Shown: in pieces, positions 929 to 8,242 of the stretch
How the letters are laid out: every line of letters starts with the position of its first letter
How positions within the stretch are numbered: position 1 is the first letter of the stretch
From: an uncultured Clostridia bacterium
Lineage (GTDB): Bacteria > Bacillota > Clostridia > Peptostreptococcales > Anaerovoracaceae
NCBI GenBank assembly: GCA_944386095.1
Contig: CALWZU010000099.1
Span: 1-35,465 of the forward strand
DNA: 35,465 nt
Reading direction: 5' to 3'
The notes under the pieces: model-generated
Seen by the model: the letters and a program-made list of their open reading frames with translations, nothing else
What the model was told of the DNA's origin: nothing
The model's database searches: none
Position numbers and translations under genes: made by a program

Positions 929-957
929 TTGGCAAGGACATTTGGGAATGATAAAAT
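929..957 (+). promoter_or_regulatory. Sigma-A-type promoter of the three-gene operon
   Basis: TTGGCA (929-934), a 17-base spacer, and TAAAAT (952-957) with an extended -10 TG at 949-950. The expected start of transcription is near 964, leaving a leader of about 80 bases. Confidence 0.7.
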
Positions 958-1043
958 AAAAGAAAATCATGAGAGGCTGAAACGGCTTTTCGCATGGGTG
1001 GCGGAACGGGAAAAGGCTCCGGCGTCAGGGAAAAGAGGTGGCT

Positions 1044-4000
1044 ATGAACAGAAAACCAGAAAAAAAACGATACGCCCAGTTTATGCAGGCTTTAGGGAAA
1101 AGACAGATCCTGCATCAGCTGCAGATGAGTAAAAAAGCCCTGGCTTTGATGATCCGGGAGGATGACTGGCAGGGCAGGTCGGAAGGCCTGTTGGGAGAAA
1201 ATGGCCGGTATTCCTGCCGTAAGGTGATCCAGGCCTTCCAGGATTCGGCGGAGCGCCTGTGTCCCCGGCCTCCGGAGGGATGGGCGGAATTTTGTTACCG
1301 GTATGGAGAGGATCTTTTATTCCCGGATCCGGAATTTTCCAAAAGCCGCAAAACCTACGGCCCCGGCGCTCTTTTGCTTTTGGCTGTTTTGCAAACCCTT
1401 CTGAGGGAAGAAAGGGAAGAGGCGGCCTTTGACTGGCGGCTGGATTTTTCCTTTTGCAGTGAAGAGGAAGCGGCTCAGGGAGAATGCGCCCGGGAATACG
1501 CTCTTTTGATGGAGCGCTTTCAGGAGGAATTTGTGTATGAAATCCTCCGGCTGGGCGGGGAAGTTACACCCTATCAAACCCTCAGCCATATCGGCGGGGT
1601 CCATTACGTGGCGATGCACATGGCAAGAGCGCTTTTGCGCAAAGGTGTAAAGGTGGACCTGGCTCTGATTTCCGGAGCGGCCCTGATTCACGATATCGGA
1701 AAGCTGGGCTGCAAGCCGGGGGAAAGGGTTCCCTATCTGCATTATTACTATACGGATCATTGGTGCAAAAACAGGGAGCTGAAAAGCATCGGCCACATCG
1801 CCGCCAACCATTCCACCTGGGATTTGGAGGTAGAAAACCTGCAGGTGGAATCCCTTCTTTTAATATACGCGGATTTTCGGGTCAAGCAGAGCTTTGATGA
1901 AAATAGAAAGGAAATATCGCAGATTTTTACCCTTTCAGAATCCTTCGATGTGATCCTGAAAAAGCTTGACAATGTAGACCAGGCAAAGCGGCAGCGTTAT
2001 GAATTTGTGTATACCAAGCTCCATGATTTCCAGGATTACATGGAAAGCCTGGGAGTGGATATTTCTTTGTCCGGAAAGCCGGTAAAGGCCCGGGAAAAAC
2101 GGGATATAGCCCTGCAAAGCCCTTCTCAGGCGGTAGAAACTCTGAAGCTTTTGGGAGTGGAGCATAACATCGAGGTGATGCACAGGCTCAGCAGTGAAAA
2201 AACCTTCGCCAATATTCTGGAGGCGGCAAGAAGCGAAAAAAAATGGAAAAACATCCGGGCCTATATCAACGTTTTTGAGGAATATTTTACTTATCTGAAC
2301 TCCCGGCAGAAAATCCAGACCCTGGATTTCCTTTATGAGCTTTTGATGCATCATCAGGGGGACATCCGGCGTCAGGCGGCGGGACTGATGGGAAACATCA
2401 TCGCGCATTTCAACGAGGGCTATAAAAAGGAGCTCCCGGCGGACGCCCTTCCGGAATCCGATGATGATACCGCTTTGCATATGTGGCAGACCTATCTTGA
2501 CATGATGATTTTTCCCGACCATAAGCTGACCGGCCAGCACAAAAGCTGGATCGGCTATACTCTGAAGGTCGTGATTTCCTCGGTGATGGAGCATTGCGCT
2601 TTCGATGACAGGAAGCTGTATCTGGATGTGTTGTTTTCTTATTATCAGCATCCGGAAAAAATGAAGGAGGCTACCGCCTTTGTTCTTTTGGACGCCGCAG
2701 CGGATCTGCCCCTTGTCCTTTGCGACAGCTCGCAGCTGGGGCTTCTGAGGGGACTGTGCCTGCAAAGCGCCCTTTCAGAGCGGATCGACCTGAAGGCGGC
2801 TTCTCTCAGAGCCATGACCCATATGGCAAAATCTCTGGAGGGCGGGCAAACCGAAGACCTCAGAGCGTTTGTCCGGCAATTTGACCCGGGAAAGCAGCCC
2901 TGTCTGATTTTTTTGAAAGCCGGACTGTGGGAGGCCCTTTTCCCGGAGACGGAGGAAATCCGCCAGATGAGACGAAGCCTGGACAGGGGCGACATCGTTT
3001 CGGAGATTTTTCTGGACAATTTGAAAACGGCCACTCCATGGATCGTCAAATCCGTAAATATCCAGATCCTTTTAGACCAGATACAGCGGGGTCAGAAGGA
3101 GCATCTGCTGCACATCGCCACTCATTTTTCCAATCTGATCAAGGTCAGCGAACGGGTGGTGGTCCGTCATGACGCCGGCGCCGGCCTTTTGCAGATCGGG
3201 CCTTATCTGACCTTGGATCAGCGAAATGAAATCGCCGTAGAGCTGACCAAGGGCCTGGAGGTGGGAGAATATGAGTTTTCAAAATATATACCCCAGTATT
3301 TGGGGGTTTTCGCCTTATGGCTGCATCCCAAGGAACTGGATGAGCTGATCGGACGCCTGGAGGAGCTTCTGTCGAGCTCCAGCGATCAGATCGTTTCGGT
3401 GAGCCTGGGAACGGTAGGATATTTGCTGCAAAATTACGCGTCCTATGGGAAGCGGTTTTCTCTTGACAGGGAAAGCTGTGAAAAAAGGCAGGACAGGCTT
3501 TTAGGCATGCTTTTAAAGGGACTTGCCAGCTACCGGGAAACCGTTCGTCAGGAGGCTCTTTTGGTGTTCGGCCAGGGCTTGTTTGCTTCCCCTGTACTCA
3601 CTCCCGAGGAAAAGGCGGATATTTTTAAGCGGTGTTTTAAAAAAGCCCTGTTTTTGATCTGCGAGCATCAGAAGGGAGGGCTGTCCTTTTTCTACCGGGC
3701 GGCGGCTCTGAATCATATTTACCGTTTTCTGACCGATCAGATGATCCGGCGGGGCGGGTTTCGCTTTTCTCATCGAAGCCGGATCGCGTTTTTCCCCGGA
3801 ACCTTTGATCCTTTTACCCTTTCTCACAAGGGAATCGCCCAGGCGATCCGAGATATGGGCTTTGAGGTGATGCTGGCGGTAGATGAGTTTTCCTGGTCGA
3901 AAAAGACCCAGCCCAAGCTGATCCGCCGTCAGATCGTCAGCATGTCTGTGGCCGATGAGTTTCACATCCATTTGTTTCCCGACGCCGTTTCCATCAATCT

Positions 4001-5897
4001 GGCCAATCCGGAGGATCTGAAAAAGCTTCGGGCCATGTTCCCGGAGGATGAGGTTTATGTGGTGGTGGGAAGCGATGTGGTGGCCAATGCTTCTGCTTAC
4101 CGGGCGCCGGATACGCCCTATTCCATTCACCACTTCAACCATATCGTGTTCTGGCGGGCGGGGAGCCTGGAGGAGGAAGTGGAGCTTTCAGAGGAGGCCC
4201 TTTCCCGGATCGACGGCAAGGTCATCGAGCTGTCTCTGCCTGTGCATCTGGAGGATATCAGCTCTACCAGGATCCGGGAAAATATCGATCTGAACCGGGA
4301 CATTTCCAATCTGATCGATCCTTCCGCCCAGGAATTCATCTATCAAAACAGCCTTTATCTTCGGGAACCTCAATATAAGCAGGTGCTTTTGTCAAAGGAC
4401 ATCGTGTTTGAATGGATCGAAAAACCCAATGCGGTGATGCTGGACCGGCTTTTCGGGGCAGTTCTTTCCCGGGATCAGGACGATTACCGGCTCAGCCGGA
4501 GCGTACTGGAGCAGGGCGACAGTCTGGTGGTGATGAAAACAGAAACGGGGGGAGATAAAACCGCAGGCTTTGCCACTTTCCGAAAAACCGGCTACAGCGA
4601 TCTTCTGGGGCAGCTGAAGGACTATGAGCTGGTGGAAAAAATACGGGGACAGGTATCGGGAAGACTGCTTTTGATCAGCGGGATCTATGTGGCCGGCTGC
4701 AAGCAGATCGAAGACGGAGCCCAGCTGCTTTTGACAGAAGCTCTGGCAGAGGGCCTGACATCTGACTGTACCTATGGGCTGTTTTATTCCCAGGATTATC
4801 AGGCCCTTGGAGAGGAAACGGAGGATGCGCTGCTGCGGCAGGGCTTTGTCCGGATCCAGTCCCGGGAGCATACTCTGTACCTTGTGAATTTGCAGGCGCC
4901 GGTGGTGCTGATACAGAATCTGGAAACCACCTTCAAGGAACCTTTCGCTTCGGATCCGCAGATCCTGGAGGTGATCGGAAAGGCGCACAGAAGGCTGCAA
5001 AGGGTCATGACAAAGCTGTATCCCGGCAATCTTGTGCTGTCTCTTTCCGCCGGGATCATCCACAGAAGGCTGATCGAAAAGATCACCGATTTAAACGGTG
5101 TACCTCTTACCCCTCTTTTCCCCCGAAAGCTGGGGCCTTACATGTGCGTACCCTTTGGAAAGATCCTGCGTAACAAGGCGGTGCCCAATACCGTCACCAA
5201 GACCCTGCATACCGATAAGGTTTTCCAGCCGGATATCCGCAGTTTTTCCATTGAGGCGTATCCCTACTATTCCCCCCTTGCCAACCAGATCCGCACCATT
5301 CATTCCTTTATGCGGCCGGTGATCCTGGTGGATGATCTGCTTCATGCGGGGGCCCGGATACAGGCTCTTAAGCCTCTTTTGGAAAAGGAGGCGATACAGG
5401 TGGAAAGGATTCTGGTGGGCCTGCTTTCCGGAAAGGGCAGGGATCTGATGAGGCTGCAGCAGCTGCCGGTGGACTGCATTTATTATATTCCCAATATGAA
5501 AAAATGGTTTGTGGAGTCCAGCCTGTATCCGTTTATCGGAGGGGATACGGTCCGCAGGGAAAAGGCGCCGGTGGCGGGGCTGATGCCCTCGGTCAATCTG
5601 ATTTTGCCCTACGCTTCTCCGGAATTTCTCCGGCCCTGTTCTCAGGAAGGGATTTTCGACCTGTCCCTTGTGTGCATCGAAAACGCCAGAGATATTTTTC
5701 TTGCGCTGGAAGCCCGGTACCGGACGATTTTCGGCAGAAACCTGACCCTTGGCCGTCTGTCGGAGGCGGTGATTCTGCCTCAGTGCCCGGACAAGGGAAG
5801 CTGTATGAACTACGACGCCGGCGTCGCCGCTTCGGTATATCTGGAAAATGACATAGAAATGCTGCTGCGGGTGCGGCGGCGTTCAGAGGAGGAATAA
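1044..5897 (+). CDS. Giant fusion: HD domain, helical repeats, NadD-like nucleotidyltransferase, PRTase-like domain
   Basis: A 1617-residue cytoplasmic protein of unknown function. Residues 187-256 form an HD phosphohydrolase domain: His187, the HDIGKLG motif with His216-Asp217, His251 and His256. Residues about 300-900 are helix-rich and look like HEAT-type repeats. At 919-930, GTFDPFTLSHKG matches the nucleotide-binding (H/T)xGH signature of the NadD/cytidylyltransferase superfamily with the Gly as Ser; ISSTRIR at 1072-1078 matches the second motif. Residues about 1110-1250 could be acetyltransferase-like (weak). Residues about 1290-1520 resemble a phosphoribosyltransferase, with the PRPP-loop-like VILVDDLLHAGA at 1426-1437. 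The start at 1044 has GAGGTGG just upstream; GTG at 1038 overlaps that site. HD and NadD also pair in the nadD-yqeK arrangement, so a role in dinucleotide metabolism is inferred, not shown. Confidence 0.85.
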   Translation: MNRKPEKKRYAQFMQALGKRQILHQLQMSKKALALMIREDDWQGRSEGLLGENGRYSCRKVIQAFQDSAERLCPRPPEGWAEFCYRYGEDLLFPDPEFSKSRKTYGPGALLLLAVLQTLLREEREEAAFDWRLDFSFCSEEEAAQGECAREYALLMERFQEEFVYEILRLGGEVTPYQTLSHIGGVHYVAMHMARALLRKGVKVDLALISGAALIHDIGKLGCKPGERVPYLHYYYTDHWCKNRELKSIGHIAANHSTWDLEVENLQVESLLLIYADFRVKQSFDENRKEISQIFTLSESFDVILKKLDNVDQAKRQRYEFVYTKLHDFQDYMESLGVDISLSGKPVKAREKRDIALQSPSQAVETLKLLGVEHNIEVMHRLSSEKTFANILEAARSEKKWKNIRAYINVFEEYFTYLNSRQKIQTLDFLYELLMHHQGDIRRQAAGLMGNIIAHFNEGYKKELPADALPESDDDTALHMWQTYLDMMIFPDHKLTGQHKSWIGYTLKVVISSVMEHCAFDDRKLYLDVLFSYYQHPEKMKEATAFVLLDAAADLPLVLCDSSQLGLLRGLCLQSALSERIDLKAASLRAMTHMAKSLEGGQTEDLRAFVRQFDPGKQPCLIFLKAGLWEALFPETEEIRQMRRSLDRGDIVSEIFLDNLKTATPWIVKSVNIQILLDQIQRGQKEHLLHIATHFSNLIKVSERVVVRHDAGAGLLQIGPYLTLDQRNEIAVELTKGLEVGEYEFSKYIPQYLGVFALWLHPKELDELIGRLEELLSSSSDQIVSVSLGTVGYLLQNYASYGKRFSLDRESCEKRQDRLLGMLLKGLASYRETVRQEALLVFGQGLFASPVLTPEEKADIFKRCFKKALFLICEHQKGGLSFFYRAAALNHIYRFLTDQMIRRGGFRFSHRSRIAFFPGTFDPFTLSHKGIAQAIRDMGFEVMLAVDEFSWSKKTQPKLIRRQIVSMSVADEFHIHLFPDAVSINLANPEDLKKLRAMFPEDEVYVVVGSDVVANASAYRAPDTPYSIHHFNHIVFWRAGSLEEEVELSEEALSRIDGKVIELSLPVHLEDISSTRIRENIDLNRDISNLIDPSAQEFIYQNSLYLREPQYKQVLLSKDIVFEWIEKPNAVMLDRLFGAVLSRDQDDYRLSRSVLEQGDSLVVMKTETGGDKTAGFATFRKTGYSDLLGQLKDYELVEKIRGQVSGRLLLISGIYVAGCKQIEDGAQLLLTEALAEGLTSDCTYGLFYSQDYQALGEETEDALLRQGFVRIQSREHTLYLVNLQAPVVLIQNLETTFKEPFASDPQILEVIGKAHRRLQRVMTKLYPGNLVLSLSAGIIHRRLIEKITDLNGVPLTPLFPRKLGPYMCVPFGKILRNKAVPNTVTKTLHTDKVFQPDIRSFSIEAYPYYSPLANQIRTIHSFMRPVILVDDLLHAGARIQALKPLLEKEAIQVERILVGLLSGKGRDLMRLQQLPVDCIYYIPNMKKWFVESSLYPFIGGDTVRREKAPVAGLMPSVNLILPYASPEFLRPCSQEGIFDLSLVCIENARDIFLALEARYRTIFGRNLTLGRLSEAVILPQCPDKGSCMNYDAGVAASVYLENDIEMLLRVRRRSEEE

Positions 5898-5901
5898 AAG
5901 C

Positions 5902-7188
5902 ATGTACTGGGAAATCGTGCAAAAAGGACCGGGGGGCAAACCGGCCTTTTGCTGGCTGTATGAGGCGGATCCTCAAAAAACAAGGAGCATGTTTCCCCTG
6001 AGCCGGAACCTTTCCGTTGCCCTCCGGCAAATGGCCCAGCAGGAGGAGGGGGCGTTTTTACTTAGCGAAACGGAGATGGAAAAAAGAGAAAAGGATCTTT
6101 CAGGGAGAGAAGGGAGAGACCTCCTTGAGGGGCTCAGCCGGGAAGGGGTGGAGTTGATCAAAAAAGGCCGGAGCTTTGGGGTGAATATCCGCAGCCGGGA
6201 TAATCAGACCCTTTTGGAAAAGGGCTTTCCTCTTATGCAAAAAAAGAAAAAGACCGTCCATATTATGGCGCTGGGAGATGTGGGCGCCACCTTGCTTATG
6301 GGGCTGAGGCTTTTGGGCGGCGGCGTGATCGATGAAATCGGCATATGGGATATGAGAGAGCCTGTCTGCGGGTACTGGGAAAGGGAAATGAACCAGATAT
6401 CGCCGCCCTTTTCCTATGACGCTTTGCCTCCGGTCAGAGCCGTTTCTTTCCAGGCGCTTTTTGACTGCGATGTATTCTTGTTTTGCGCCTCCAAGGGGGT
6501 GCCTGCTTTGGGAAGCCGGGCGGAGGATGTGCGGATGGTCCAGCTTTCGGCCAACGCAAAGCTTGTGGGCCGTTATGCCCGGATGGCCAGAGAGACGGGC
6601 TTTGAGGGGCTTTTCGGCGTGGTAAGCGATCCGGTGGATCCTTTATGCCGGGTAGCGCTGGAAAGAAGCAACCAGGACCAACAGGGCCGGTGGGACGGAA
6701 AGGGGCTTTATCCCCATCAGATCCAGGGCTTTGGCCTTGGGGTCATGAATGCCAGGGCGGCTTATTATGCGAAAAAGGATCCGCGCTTTTCTTCGTTTTT
6801 AACCCAGGGAAGAGCCTTTGGCCCCCATGGGGAAGATCTGGTGATCGCCAATTCCATTGAAGCATACGACGATGCCCTTTCCCGGGAGCTTACGCAGCTG
6901 GCGAAACGGGCCAATCAGGAGATACGGGCCATGGGCTTTAAGCCTTATGTGGCGCCGGCTCTGTCTTCCGGAGCCTTGTCCGTTATTTCGGCCCTTTCGG
7001 GACAATGGCATTATGGTTCGGTATTTCTGGGAGGCGTGTTTATAGGCGTCAATCACCGGCTGACCTGGGCCGGCCCGGAGCCGGAGGCGCTGCCCTTGCC
7101 CCAGGCGCTGCTGGAAAGGATACTCACGGCGGAAAAAGGCCTTCACAGGCTGATTGGAAGAGAGGAGGCAGAAGATGGAAGCATCTGA
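5902..7188 (+). CDS. Diverged lactate/malate-dehydrogenase-fold protein
   Basis: A 428-residue protein starting 4 bases after the fusion gene, with GAGGAGG overlapping that gene's end. Residues 1-115 are unrecognised. From 118 there is a Rossmann fold: GDVGA at 125-129 and an acidic strand end at Asp150. Later landmarks follow the order of L-lactate/malate dehydrogenases: a mobile-loop-like GSR (204-206), VVSDPVD (240-246) in place of the usual NPVD, GLGVMNAR (278-285), and GRAFGPHG (303-310). His309 lies 24 residues after Arg285, the same spacing as His195 and Arg171 in lactate dehydrogenase. The Asp of the relay (three residues before the Arg) is Met282. The fold call is by motif reading; the substrate is unknown and normal dehydrogenase chemistry is doubtful. 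Confidence 0.75.
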   Translation: MYWEIVQKGPGGKPAFCWLYEADPQKTRSMFPLSRNLSVALRQMAQQEEGAFLLSETEMEKREKDLSGREGRDLLEGLSREGVELIKKGRSFGVNIRSRDNQTLLEKGFPLMQKKKKTVHIMALGDVGATLLMGLRLLGGGVIDEIGIWDMREPVCGYWEREMNQISPPFSYDALPPVRAVSFQALFDCDVFLFCASKGVPALGSRAEDVRMVQLSANAKLVGRYARMARETGFEGLFGVVSDPVDPLCRVALERSNQDQQGRWDGKGLYPHQIQGFGLGVMNARAAYYAKKDPRFSSFLTQGRAFGPHGEDLVIANSIEAYDDALSRELTQLAKRANQEIRAMGFKPYVAPALSSGALSVISALSGQWHYGSVFLGGVFIGVNHRLTWAGPEPEALPLPQALLERILTAEKGLHRLIGREEAEDGSI

Positions 7189-8242
7189 GCTTGTGCTGAT
7201 TATGCCCCGGTGTCAGGAAAGAGAAAAAACCCAGCGGATGAGCCGGGTTTTGGCATATGCCTTGCAGGATGCGAGGGTAAGCCGGAAAATCGAGACCGCC
7301 CGGGAGCTTGCGGATCTGAAAGGGAAAAAGCTGCTTTTTGCGGTCATGCTGGGGGAATCGGGCATCAATCTGGAATACTGCTCCATGCTTAAAAGGATCC
7401 GGCTGGAAAAGGATCTGTTTGAAGGCTGTCAGGGAGCCGTTATTGTGGATGGGCTCAGCGAGCTTTTTACAAAATCCGTTTCCAGAAGCCTGGTTCTTGC
7501 GGCTAACCGGGCGGGCTGCGCTTTTATCGGAAGGCCTCTTGTGGAGGGAACCAGATCTCTTGCGAATTTTCATGTTCTGGCGAAGCAGGGAGATACGGAT
7601 CCGCTTCAGGCCTATTTTCATCAGGCCCGGGAACTGGTAGGGCGTCTTTTGGAGCAGCAGCCTCCCTTTTATGAGGATCCGCGTCTTTTGGTGCTGCATG
7701 CCTCCAGCCGGAAAACCTCCAATACCATGGCCCTGTGGGATCTGGTCAAAAAGGAGCTTTCCGGATGGCGGATCCGGGAAATCCCCTTGCGAAACGGCGC
7801 GCTGGTGGATTGCGCCGGCTGCTCCTACACCACCTGTATGTACTTCGGGCAGCAGGGCGGCTGCTTTTACGGCGGCGTCATGGTGGAGGAGGTTTATCCT
7901 GCGGTAATGGAGTGCGATGCCCTTTTGCTTTTATGTCCCAATTACAACGACGCTCTGTCGGCCAATCTCACTGCGTTTATCAACCGGCTGACCGCCTTGT
8001 ACCGGCAAAGGCGCTTTTATGACAAGCGGCTTTACGGCATCGTGGTATCCGGCTATTCCGGCAGCGATCTGATCGCGGAGCAGCTGATCGCGGCTCTTTG
8101 CATGAATAAATCCTTTTATTTGCCCCCGGGCTTTTGTATGATGGAAACCGCCAACGACCCGGGGAGTATTTTAAAGCTACCGGGCATACAGGAAAGGGCC
8201 GGGGCTTTTTCAGAGGCCCTGAAACGGATGAAAAAGGGATAA
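7175..8242 (+). CDS. Flavodoxin-fold (NADPH-dependent FMN reductase-like) protein with Cys cluster
   Basis: A 355-residue protein whose start at 7175 overlaps the end of the previous gene by 14 bases, with GAGGAGG before it; this implies translational coupling. Residues 1-165 are unassigned alpha/beta sequence. From 171 a flavodoxin-like domain begins with the phosphate loop 'LHASSRKTSNT' (174-184), typical of FMN reductases. Cysteines at 213, 216, 221 and 230 sit where iron-sulfur flavoproteins and related flavodoxin-family proteins carry their Cys motif; whether they bind a cluster is not known. A later 'LLLCPNYNDALSANLTAFINR' stretch fits the second flavin-binding segment of this family. 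As the last gene of the operon it may supply reducing power to the other two proteins (inference). Confidence 0.8.
   Translation: MEASELVLIMPRCQEREKTQRMSRVLAYALQDARVSRKIETARELADLKGKKLLFAVMLGESGINLEYCSMLKRIRLEKDLFEGCQGAVIVDGLSELFTKSVSRSLVLAANRAGCAFIGRPLVEGTRSLANFHVLAKQGDTDPLQAYFHQARELVGRLLEQQPPFYEDPRLLVLHASSRKTSNTMALWDLVKKELSGWRIREIPLRNGALVDCAGCSYTTCMYFGQQGGCFYGGVMVEEVYPAVMECDALLLLCPNYNDALSANLTAFINRLTALYRQRRFYDKRLYGIVVSGYSGSDLIAEQLIAALCMNKSFYLPPGFCMMETANDPGSILKLPGIQERAGAFSEALKRMKKG

Follow-up and report, generated by a model that had tools for sequence, protein, structure and literature searches.

The main finding of this analysis is a three-gene operon, here called A-B-C, that is conserved as a unit and encodes a large multidomain protein (A) together with two redox-type proteins (B and C). 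It lies in a stretch of 35,465 nucleotides from an uncultured Clostridia bacterium, which is referred to as the window. In protein searches of related genomes, full-length-type matches to A and matches to B were found in the identical 23 of 61 genomes, and C was present in 22 of these, the missing case being a contig end. When genomes are treated as independent and phylogeny is ignored, the coincidence of two 23-genome sets among 61 has a probability of 1/C(61,23) = 3e-17, and the co-occurrence of A and B is not due to chance. An earlier note on this DNA, made from the sequence alone, had claimed a co-conserved three-gene operon and had proposed counting co-occurrence across genomes as a check; the claim survived this count, as it did structure prediction and family searches.

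Gene A (1044-5897, forward strand; 1617 amino acids) starts at an ATG at 1044 preceded by a GAGGTGG ribosome site, with a GTG at 1038 as an alternative start that would add two residues. Gene B (5902-7188, forward strand; 428 amino acids) follows after a 4-base gap, and gene C (7175-8242, forward strand; 355 amino acids from the ATG at 7175) overlaps B by 14 bases; the coordinates thus confirm the spacing read earlier. A TTG at 7154 is an alternative start of C, adding seven residues and giving a 362-residue frame. Upstream of A, B and C, a consensus scan gave a single plausible promoter, a sigma-70-like site on the forward strand (929-957, TTGGCA-17-TAAAAT, 10/12). The scan of both strands gave 2 sites against 0.5 expected, and a consensus match is not by itself evidence of function; the single right-strand site nevertheless makes plausible the earlier suggestion that the genes share one promoter. 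Altogether, A, B and C look like one transcription unit. A gene for a cold-shock protein lies divergently upstream of A on the opposite strand (415-693), and a convergent reading frame starts downstream of C.

By gene clustering, B and C are each present in 37 of 43 loci, window included. Where the set is incomplete, the locus lies at a contig end, the B frame is interrupted (one case), A stands alone beside a kinase gene (three cases) or the copy of A is a specialised one (one case). No other gene family near A is common to more than seven of the 43 loci, and A-B-C is therefore the whole unit. The gene order is kept in nearly all loci, also in other families, orders and classes; it is found in two genomes outside the class (G432 and G480) and in the cultured Acetoanaerobium noterae. 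The module comes and goes both inside one family and between families, and high-scoring matches to B and C occur only in the A-B-C setting.

Several loci differ in detail. A and B lie ~5.5-6 kb apart in L080 and L081, and in L081 the intervening DNA codes for three glutamate-synthase-like proteins and one that resembles an ammonium transporter. In three loci of one family (L094, L095 and L096), A overlaps 16-34 bases of the end of the upstream gene, which looks like that of an L-serine dehydratase alpha subunit. At L066 (8007-13108, G008:C17) A consists of two reading frames, broken at the border between its GNAT-fold and PRTase-like domains, which may be a natural split or a frameshift, and B in the same locus is interrupted by a stop. 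The A. noterae locus (L119, NZ_CP154629.1) belongs to a record of 2.63 Mb that is labelled a plasmid; the record contains many housekeeping genes and resembles a chromosome.

Protein A consists, in order, of an HD domain, HEAT-like repeats, a NadD-like adenylyltransferase domain, a GNAT fold and a PRTase-like domain. The HD, NadD-like and PRTase-like domains are its best-conserved parts (mean pairwise identity 0.58, 0.55 and 0.52), among the folded C-terminal domains the GNAT fold has the lowest value (0.30), and the N-terminus stands at 0.23. The HD phosphohydrolase domain (1497-2087, forward strand; about residues 152-348) was delimited by invariant columns and profile matches. Its metal ligands H182, H216, D217, H233, H256 and D277 are invariant in 39 homologues and complete the H..HD..H..H..D set, the signature of dinuclear HD enzymes, YqeK among them (PMC8177086). 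Matches to PF01966 in 33 of the 39 family members (best 1.4e-7) support the HD domain that had been read in A. By sequence, this domain is not a YqeK: no YqeK model was among its NCBIfam matches, and hhalign of A against the YqeK of its own genome gave no HD match. Part of the HD region does match the DVU_1551-type NTP transferase with HD domain (NF045665, E 4e-6), in which an HD-like region is likewise joined to a nucleotidyltransferase, but the score is 26 bits against a cut-off of 315 and no further domains are common to the two. The helical repeats that follow (2091-3758, forward strand; residues 350-905) had also been recognised, and are supported as HEAT/ARM-like by HEAT matches in 29 of the 39 members (best 2.3e-7).

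The NadD-like domain (3750-4403, forward strand; about residues 903-1120) is documented by profiles, motifs and fold. The Pfam model CTP_transf_like matches it above cut-off (E 5e-5, and 37 of the 39 members), and its fold compares with that of Mycobacterium tuberculosis NadD at VIA Z 17.2 (rmsd 2.8, 187 residues aligned), which bears out the reading of a NadD-type nucleotidyltransferase in A. The domain keeps the ATP-site motifs FPGTFDPFxLxH, DEFSWSK and ISSTxIR (in the more general form SSxxIR). In the HxGH motif the second His is kept and the first is Ser/Thr, as in TxGH enzymes, so that it reads [ST]LxH. The NCBIfam NadD match (E 2e-12) is under cut-off, with whole-protein scores of 46.7 bits against 150 for NF000840 and 35.4 against 112.45 for TIGR00482; the domain thus shares fold and ATP-site motifs with NadD but falls far below the scores that define it.

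The two remaining domains of A are less clear-cut. A structure model shows a GNAT fold (4395-4895, forward strand; about residues 1118-1284) at VIA Z 13 (rmsd 3.0-3.3 over 144-155 residues), a domain that the earlier note overlooked while reading the other folds of A correctly. Its consensus (QIxLTETL) does not contain the acetyl-CoA loop [RQ]-x-x-G-x-[GA]. The C-terminal type I PRTase-like domain (4899-5888, forward strand; residues 1286-1615) was assigned from weak profile matches and from the order of strands and helices in a predicted structure (mean pLDDT 84). Pribosyltran was matched by 12 of the 39 members (best 2.6e-4) and an APRT model weakly by 25 (best 0.0016); hhalign of the domain against single PRTases gave 8% or less, and in the fold search NadD and GNAT matches filled the list, so that the search did not confirm a PRTase fold. 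PNTVTK and WxxExxxYP motifs are conserved, and the PRPP loop is altered (LVDDLLHAGARI): in place of DD-x-x-x-[ST]-G-x-[ST] it reads D-D-L-L-H-[AK]-G-[AY]-R, with the first Asp, the Gly and the Arg invariant. Since the loop lacks the usual Thr/Ser (GxR versus GxT), the domain may only bind a nucleotide. The phosphoribosyltransferase-like domain read earlier is thus likely but weak. Neither the PRTase nor the HD profile had more than marginal matches to PDB sequences.

Protein B has an N-terminal part of ~110 residues followed by a dehydrogenase of the LDH/MDH fold (113-421; pLDDT 92). It superposes on the LDH fold at VIA Z 30.1 (rmsd 2.7, 279 residues aligned, ~20% identity), as expected of the lactate/malate-dehydrogenase relative that had been proposed, and its Rossmann part is of the NAD type, with GDVG and an acidic end of strand 2. 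The LDH catalytic residues are not kept as a set. B retains the equivalents of the substrate Arg171 (R285) and of the catalytic His195 (H309, invariant). At the position of Asp168, however, all members have Met (M282), and at that of Asn140 all have Asp (D243), and from the His195-Asp168 pair and Asn140 only the His remains. Because of these two replacements B is probably no LDH but an oxidoreductase of the NAD type, with a different substrate or mechanism. The extra N-terminal part and scores far under cut-off further separate B from the L-lactate/malate dehydrogenases (TIGR01771, PF00056).

Protein C has an N-terminal part of ~165 residues and an FMN_red flavoprotein domain (PF03358; E 2e-20, 73.2 bits against a cut-off of 24), matched by all 37 members of the family. 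Four Cys in the spacing C-x2-C-x4-C-x8-C (C220, C223, C228 and C237 of the 362-residue frame) are invariant in 37/37, and the flavodoxin-fold protein with four Cys recognised earlier is thereby upheld. The pattern suggests an Fe-S cluster. The iron-sulfur flavoproteins (Isf) have their cluster motif at about the same place; C shares the FMN_red domain with them and differs in its Cys spacing and added N-terminal part. A duplicated flavodoxin fold in C was considered and rejected, as hhalign between its halves gave a probability of 14%, and the profile of C had no or only marginal matches to PDB sequences.

The genome of the window also carries a canonical nadD followed directly by yqeK-rsfS (L002, 1450-2103 and 2100-2960), identified by motif reading; there (G000:C29) yqeK seems to form a fusion with a domain of the ribosomal silencing factor RsfS. 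With housekeeping nadD and yqeK as separate genes, A is a second NadD/HD set. One genome, G059, has A duplicated and divided over two loci. In L077 the HD domain is intact, and the NadD-like domain is decayed (SANFDPM, RETNWQF) and lacks SSTxIR. In L078, which lies beside B-C, the NadD-like and PRTase-like domains are intact (FPGSFDPFSLGH, DEFSWSK, ISSSLIR, PNTVTKSLHTEK), and HD and GNAT are lost. In this division the NadD-like and PRTase-like domains thus stay with B-C and HD can act in trans, and the loss of GNAT argues that this domain is dispensable. This supports two separable activities in A, with the NadD-like and PRTase-like domains as the core tied to B-C.

Another, rarer form of A is found with a kinase. 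Three extra A genes without B-C (L064, L086 and L089) adjoin a gene of one APH-type kinase family, which was present in 5 of 291 sampled genomes, all of them with A (p 3e-6, phylogeny ignored). The kinase is likely an accessory partner of A, perhaps with a nucleotide-type role. The G081 member of this kinase family (L124 6847-7776, G081:C18) lies inside a pyrimidine operon, between pyrD and pyrE.

Three associations were looked for and rejected. Spo0A was found in 12 of the 23 genomes that carry the operon and in 22 of the 38 that lack it (p 0.79), giving no link to sporulation, and NadA in 10 of 23 and 15 of 38 (p 0.79), giving none to de novo NAD synthesis. Riboswitch control was not indicated either: a search of 37 loci and of the window showed no riboswitch at the operon, except for an FMN riboswitch in G081. 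In that genome (L080, G081:C54) the riboswitch (1867-1986) and a RibU-type riboflavin transporter gene (2102-2707) lie just upstream of A, with a terminator-like hairpin between the transporter gene and A; the arrangement was seen in one genome only. No pathway gene is linked to the operon in most loci.

The closest functional precedent for A is the mycoplasma NadD-YqeK fusion (JCVISYN3A_0380 of JCVI-Syn3A), which likewise unites an adenylyltransferase of the NadD type with an HD phosphohydrolase in a single chain, and in which YqeK hydrolyses wrong dinucleotides made by NadD, a form of proofreading (PMC9426524). By analogy, a common make-and-proofread logic is likely. A differs from this fusion in adding HEAT-like repeats, a GNAT fold, a PRTase-like domain and two near-obligate redox partners, in staying under the NadD cut-offs and in an HD domain that is not YqeK by sequence. 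With this precedent, we tentatively read the operon, at somewhat less than even confidence but as the best supported of the models considered, as a self-contained module in which an NAD-like dinucleotide is made and proofread separately from bulk NAD. According to this model, the PRTase-like domain of A would attach X, a base or ring acid, to ribose-5-phosphate taken from PRPP and so form an X-mononucleotide. The NadD-like domain, judging by its fold and kept motifs, would then transfer AMP from ATP to form an X-adenine dinucleotide, and the dinuclear-type HD domain, judging by its metal ligands and the mycoplasma case, would hydrolyse wrong or surplus dinucleotide. The HEAT-like repeats would hold the domains together, and the GNAT fold would probably be structural or accessory. 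B, with its NAD-type Rossmann part and LDH fold, and C, with FMN and a probable Fe-S cluster, may carry out a redox step on X or on the dinucleotide, or the dinucleotide may be their cofactor. The bolder form of this proposal, that the product is a dinucleotide coenzyme new to science, which A would both assemble from a base X, PRPP and ATP and proofread, and which the two redox partners would use in many anaerobic Clostridia, is rather doubtful.

The co-occurrence of A and B, the gene order kept even outside the class, the conserved active-site-like domains, the presence of a second NadD/HD set, the NadD-YqeK precedent and the division in G059 support the NAD-like dinucleotide model. It is weakened by the weak PRTase assignment, by an HD domain that is not YqeK by sequence, by the lack of correlation with NadA and by the absence of a linked riboswitch or pathway gene in most loci; the PRTase step is its weakest link. 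The earlier and more general proposal, namely that a nicotinamide-type nucleotide may be built, cut or recycled in a process with a redox step, is compatible with all of these findings. It is strengthened by the NadD-YqeK precedent, by active-site residues that are intact and by the existence of separate housekeeping genes for NadD and YqeK.

The main rival is an ordinary repair or recycling of pyridine nucleotides, in which HD would cut damaged or analogue NAD(P), the NadD-like and PRTase-like domains would rebuild it, and B and C would reduce the damaged ring or oxidise it again. In its favour, YqeK domains accept NaAD analogues as well as 8-oxo-GTP, and fusions of NadD with YqeK act as proofreaders of NAD synthesis (PMC9426524); the NAD-type Rossmann fold of B, the FMN domain of C and the patchy presence of the module, as expected of damage control, fit as well. 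We nevertheless regard this rival as unlikely, for canonical nadD and yqeK are already in the genome, the NadD-like domain is far under the NadD cut-off, and presence of the operon shows no link to that of NadA. A back-up synthesis of NAD from a salvaged pyridine base, by an ordinary NadD in an unusual domain arrangement, would account for the kept ATP-binding motifs and for a fold closest to NadD. It would again duplicate the canonical nadD. The known nicotinate and nicotinamide PRTases have a type II fold, against the type I-like domain in A, and we know of no role for B- and C-type proteins in NAD salvage; this makes a back-up pathway very improbable.

The HEAT-like repeats could also be taken to bind a macromolecule. 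A would then be an RNA- or protein-directed modifier, or a nucleotide-based stress regulator, whose nucleotidyltransferase, GNAT and HD domains add or remove a nucleotide or acyl mark. The resemblance of the repeats to eukaryotic scaffold repeats, the GNAT fold and the pairing of variant A with an APH-type kinase are in its favour, but the explanation is improbable: GNAT shows little conservation and is missing from L078, the fold of the NadD-like domain is that of small-molecule adenylyltransferases, and A has two redox enzymes as near-obligate partners. Least credible of all, to the point of being nearly dismissible, is an anti-phage defence or other mobile conflict system. Some horizontal transfer is suggested by the patchy distribution and by a single genome, G480, which belongs to another class and yet shows a higher identity (54%). 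The neighbours, however, are the same inside one family, which fits stable inheritance; PADLOC gave only a marginal match to A (E 0.006, over 55 residues within the repeats), PHROG gave no meaningful match to the operon proteins, and searches of phage records and viral contigs yielded no phage record and no full-length copy.

The NAD-like dinucleotide module proposed here is put together from known folds, and NadD-HD fusions have precedents, but the assembly of these parts with two redox partners was found nowhere described in the open-licence literature, in agreement with the earlier statement that no characterised pathway has this set of genes. The A-B-C unit persists unbroken through families, orders and classes, and A conserves three sets of active-site-like residues; such a unit must do something useful. 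It is spread across many gut and anaerobic bacteria, and the hypothesis is directly testable, given the small number of genes and a cultured carrier, A. noterae. If it is true, the metabolism of common anaerobes would include one more nucleotide coenzyme or, at the very least, a second pathway of the NadD type that has its proofreading built in.
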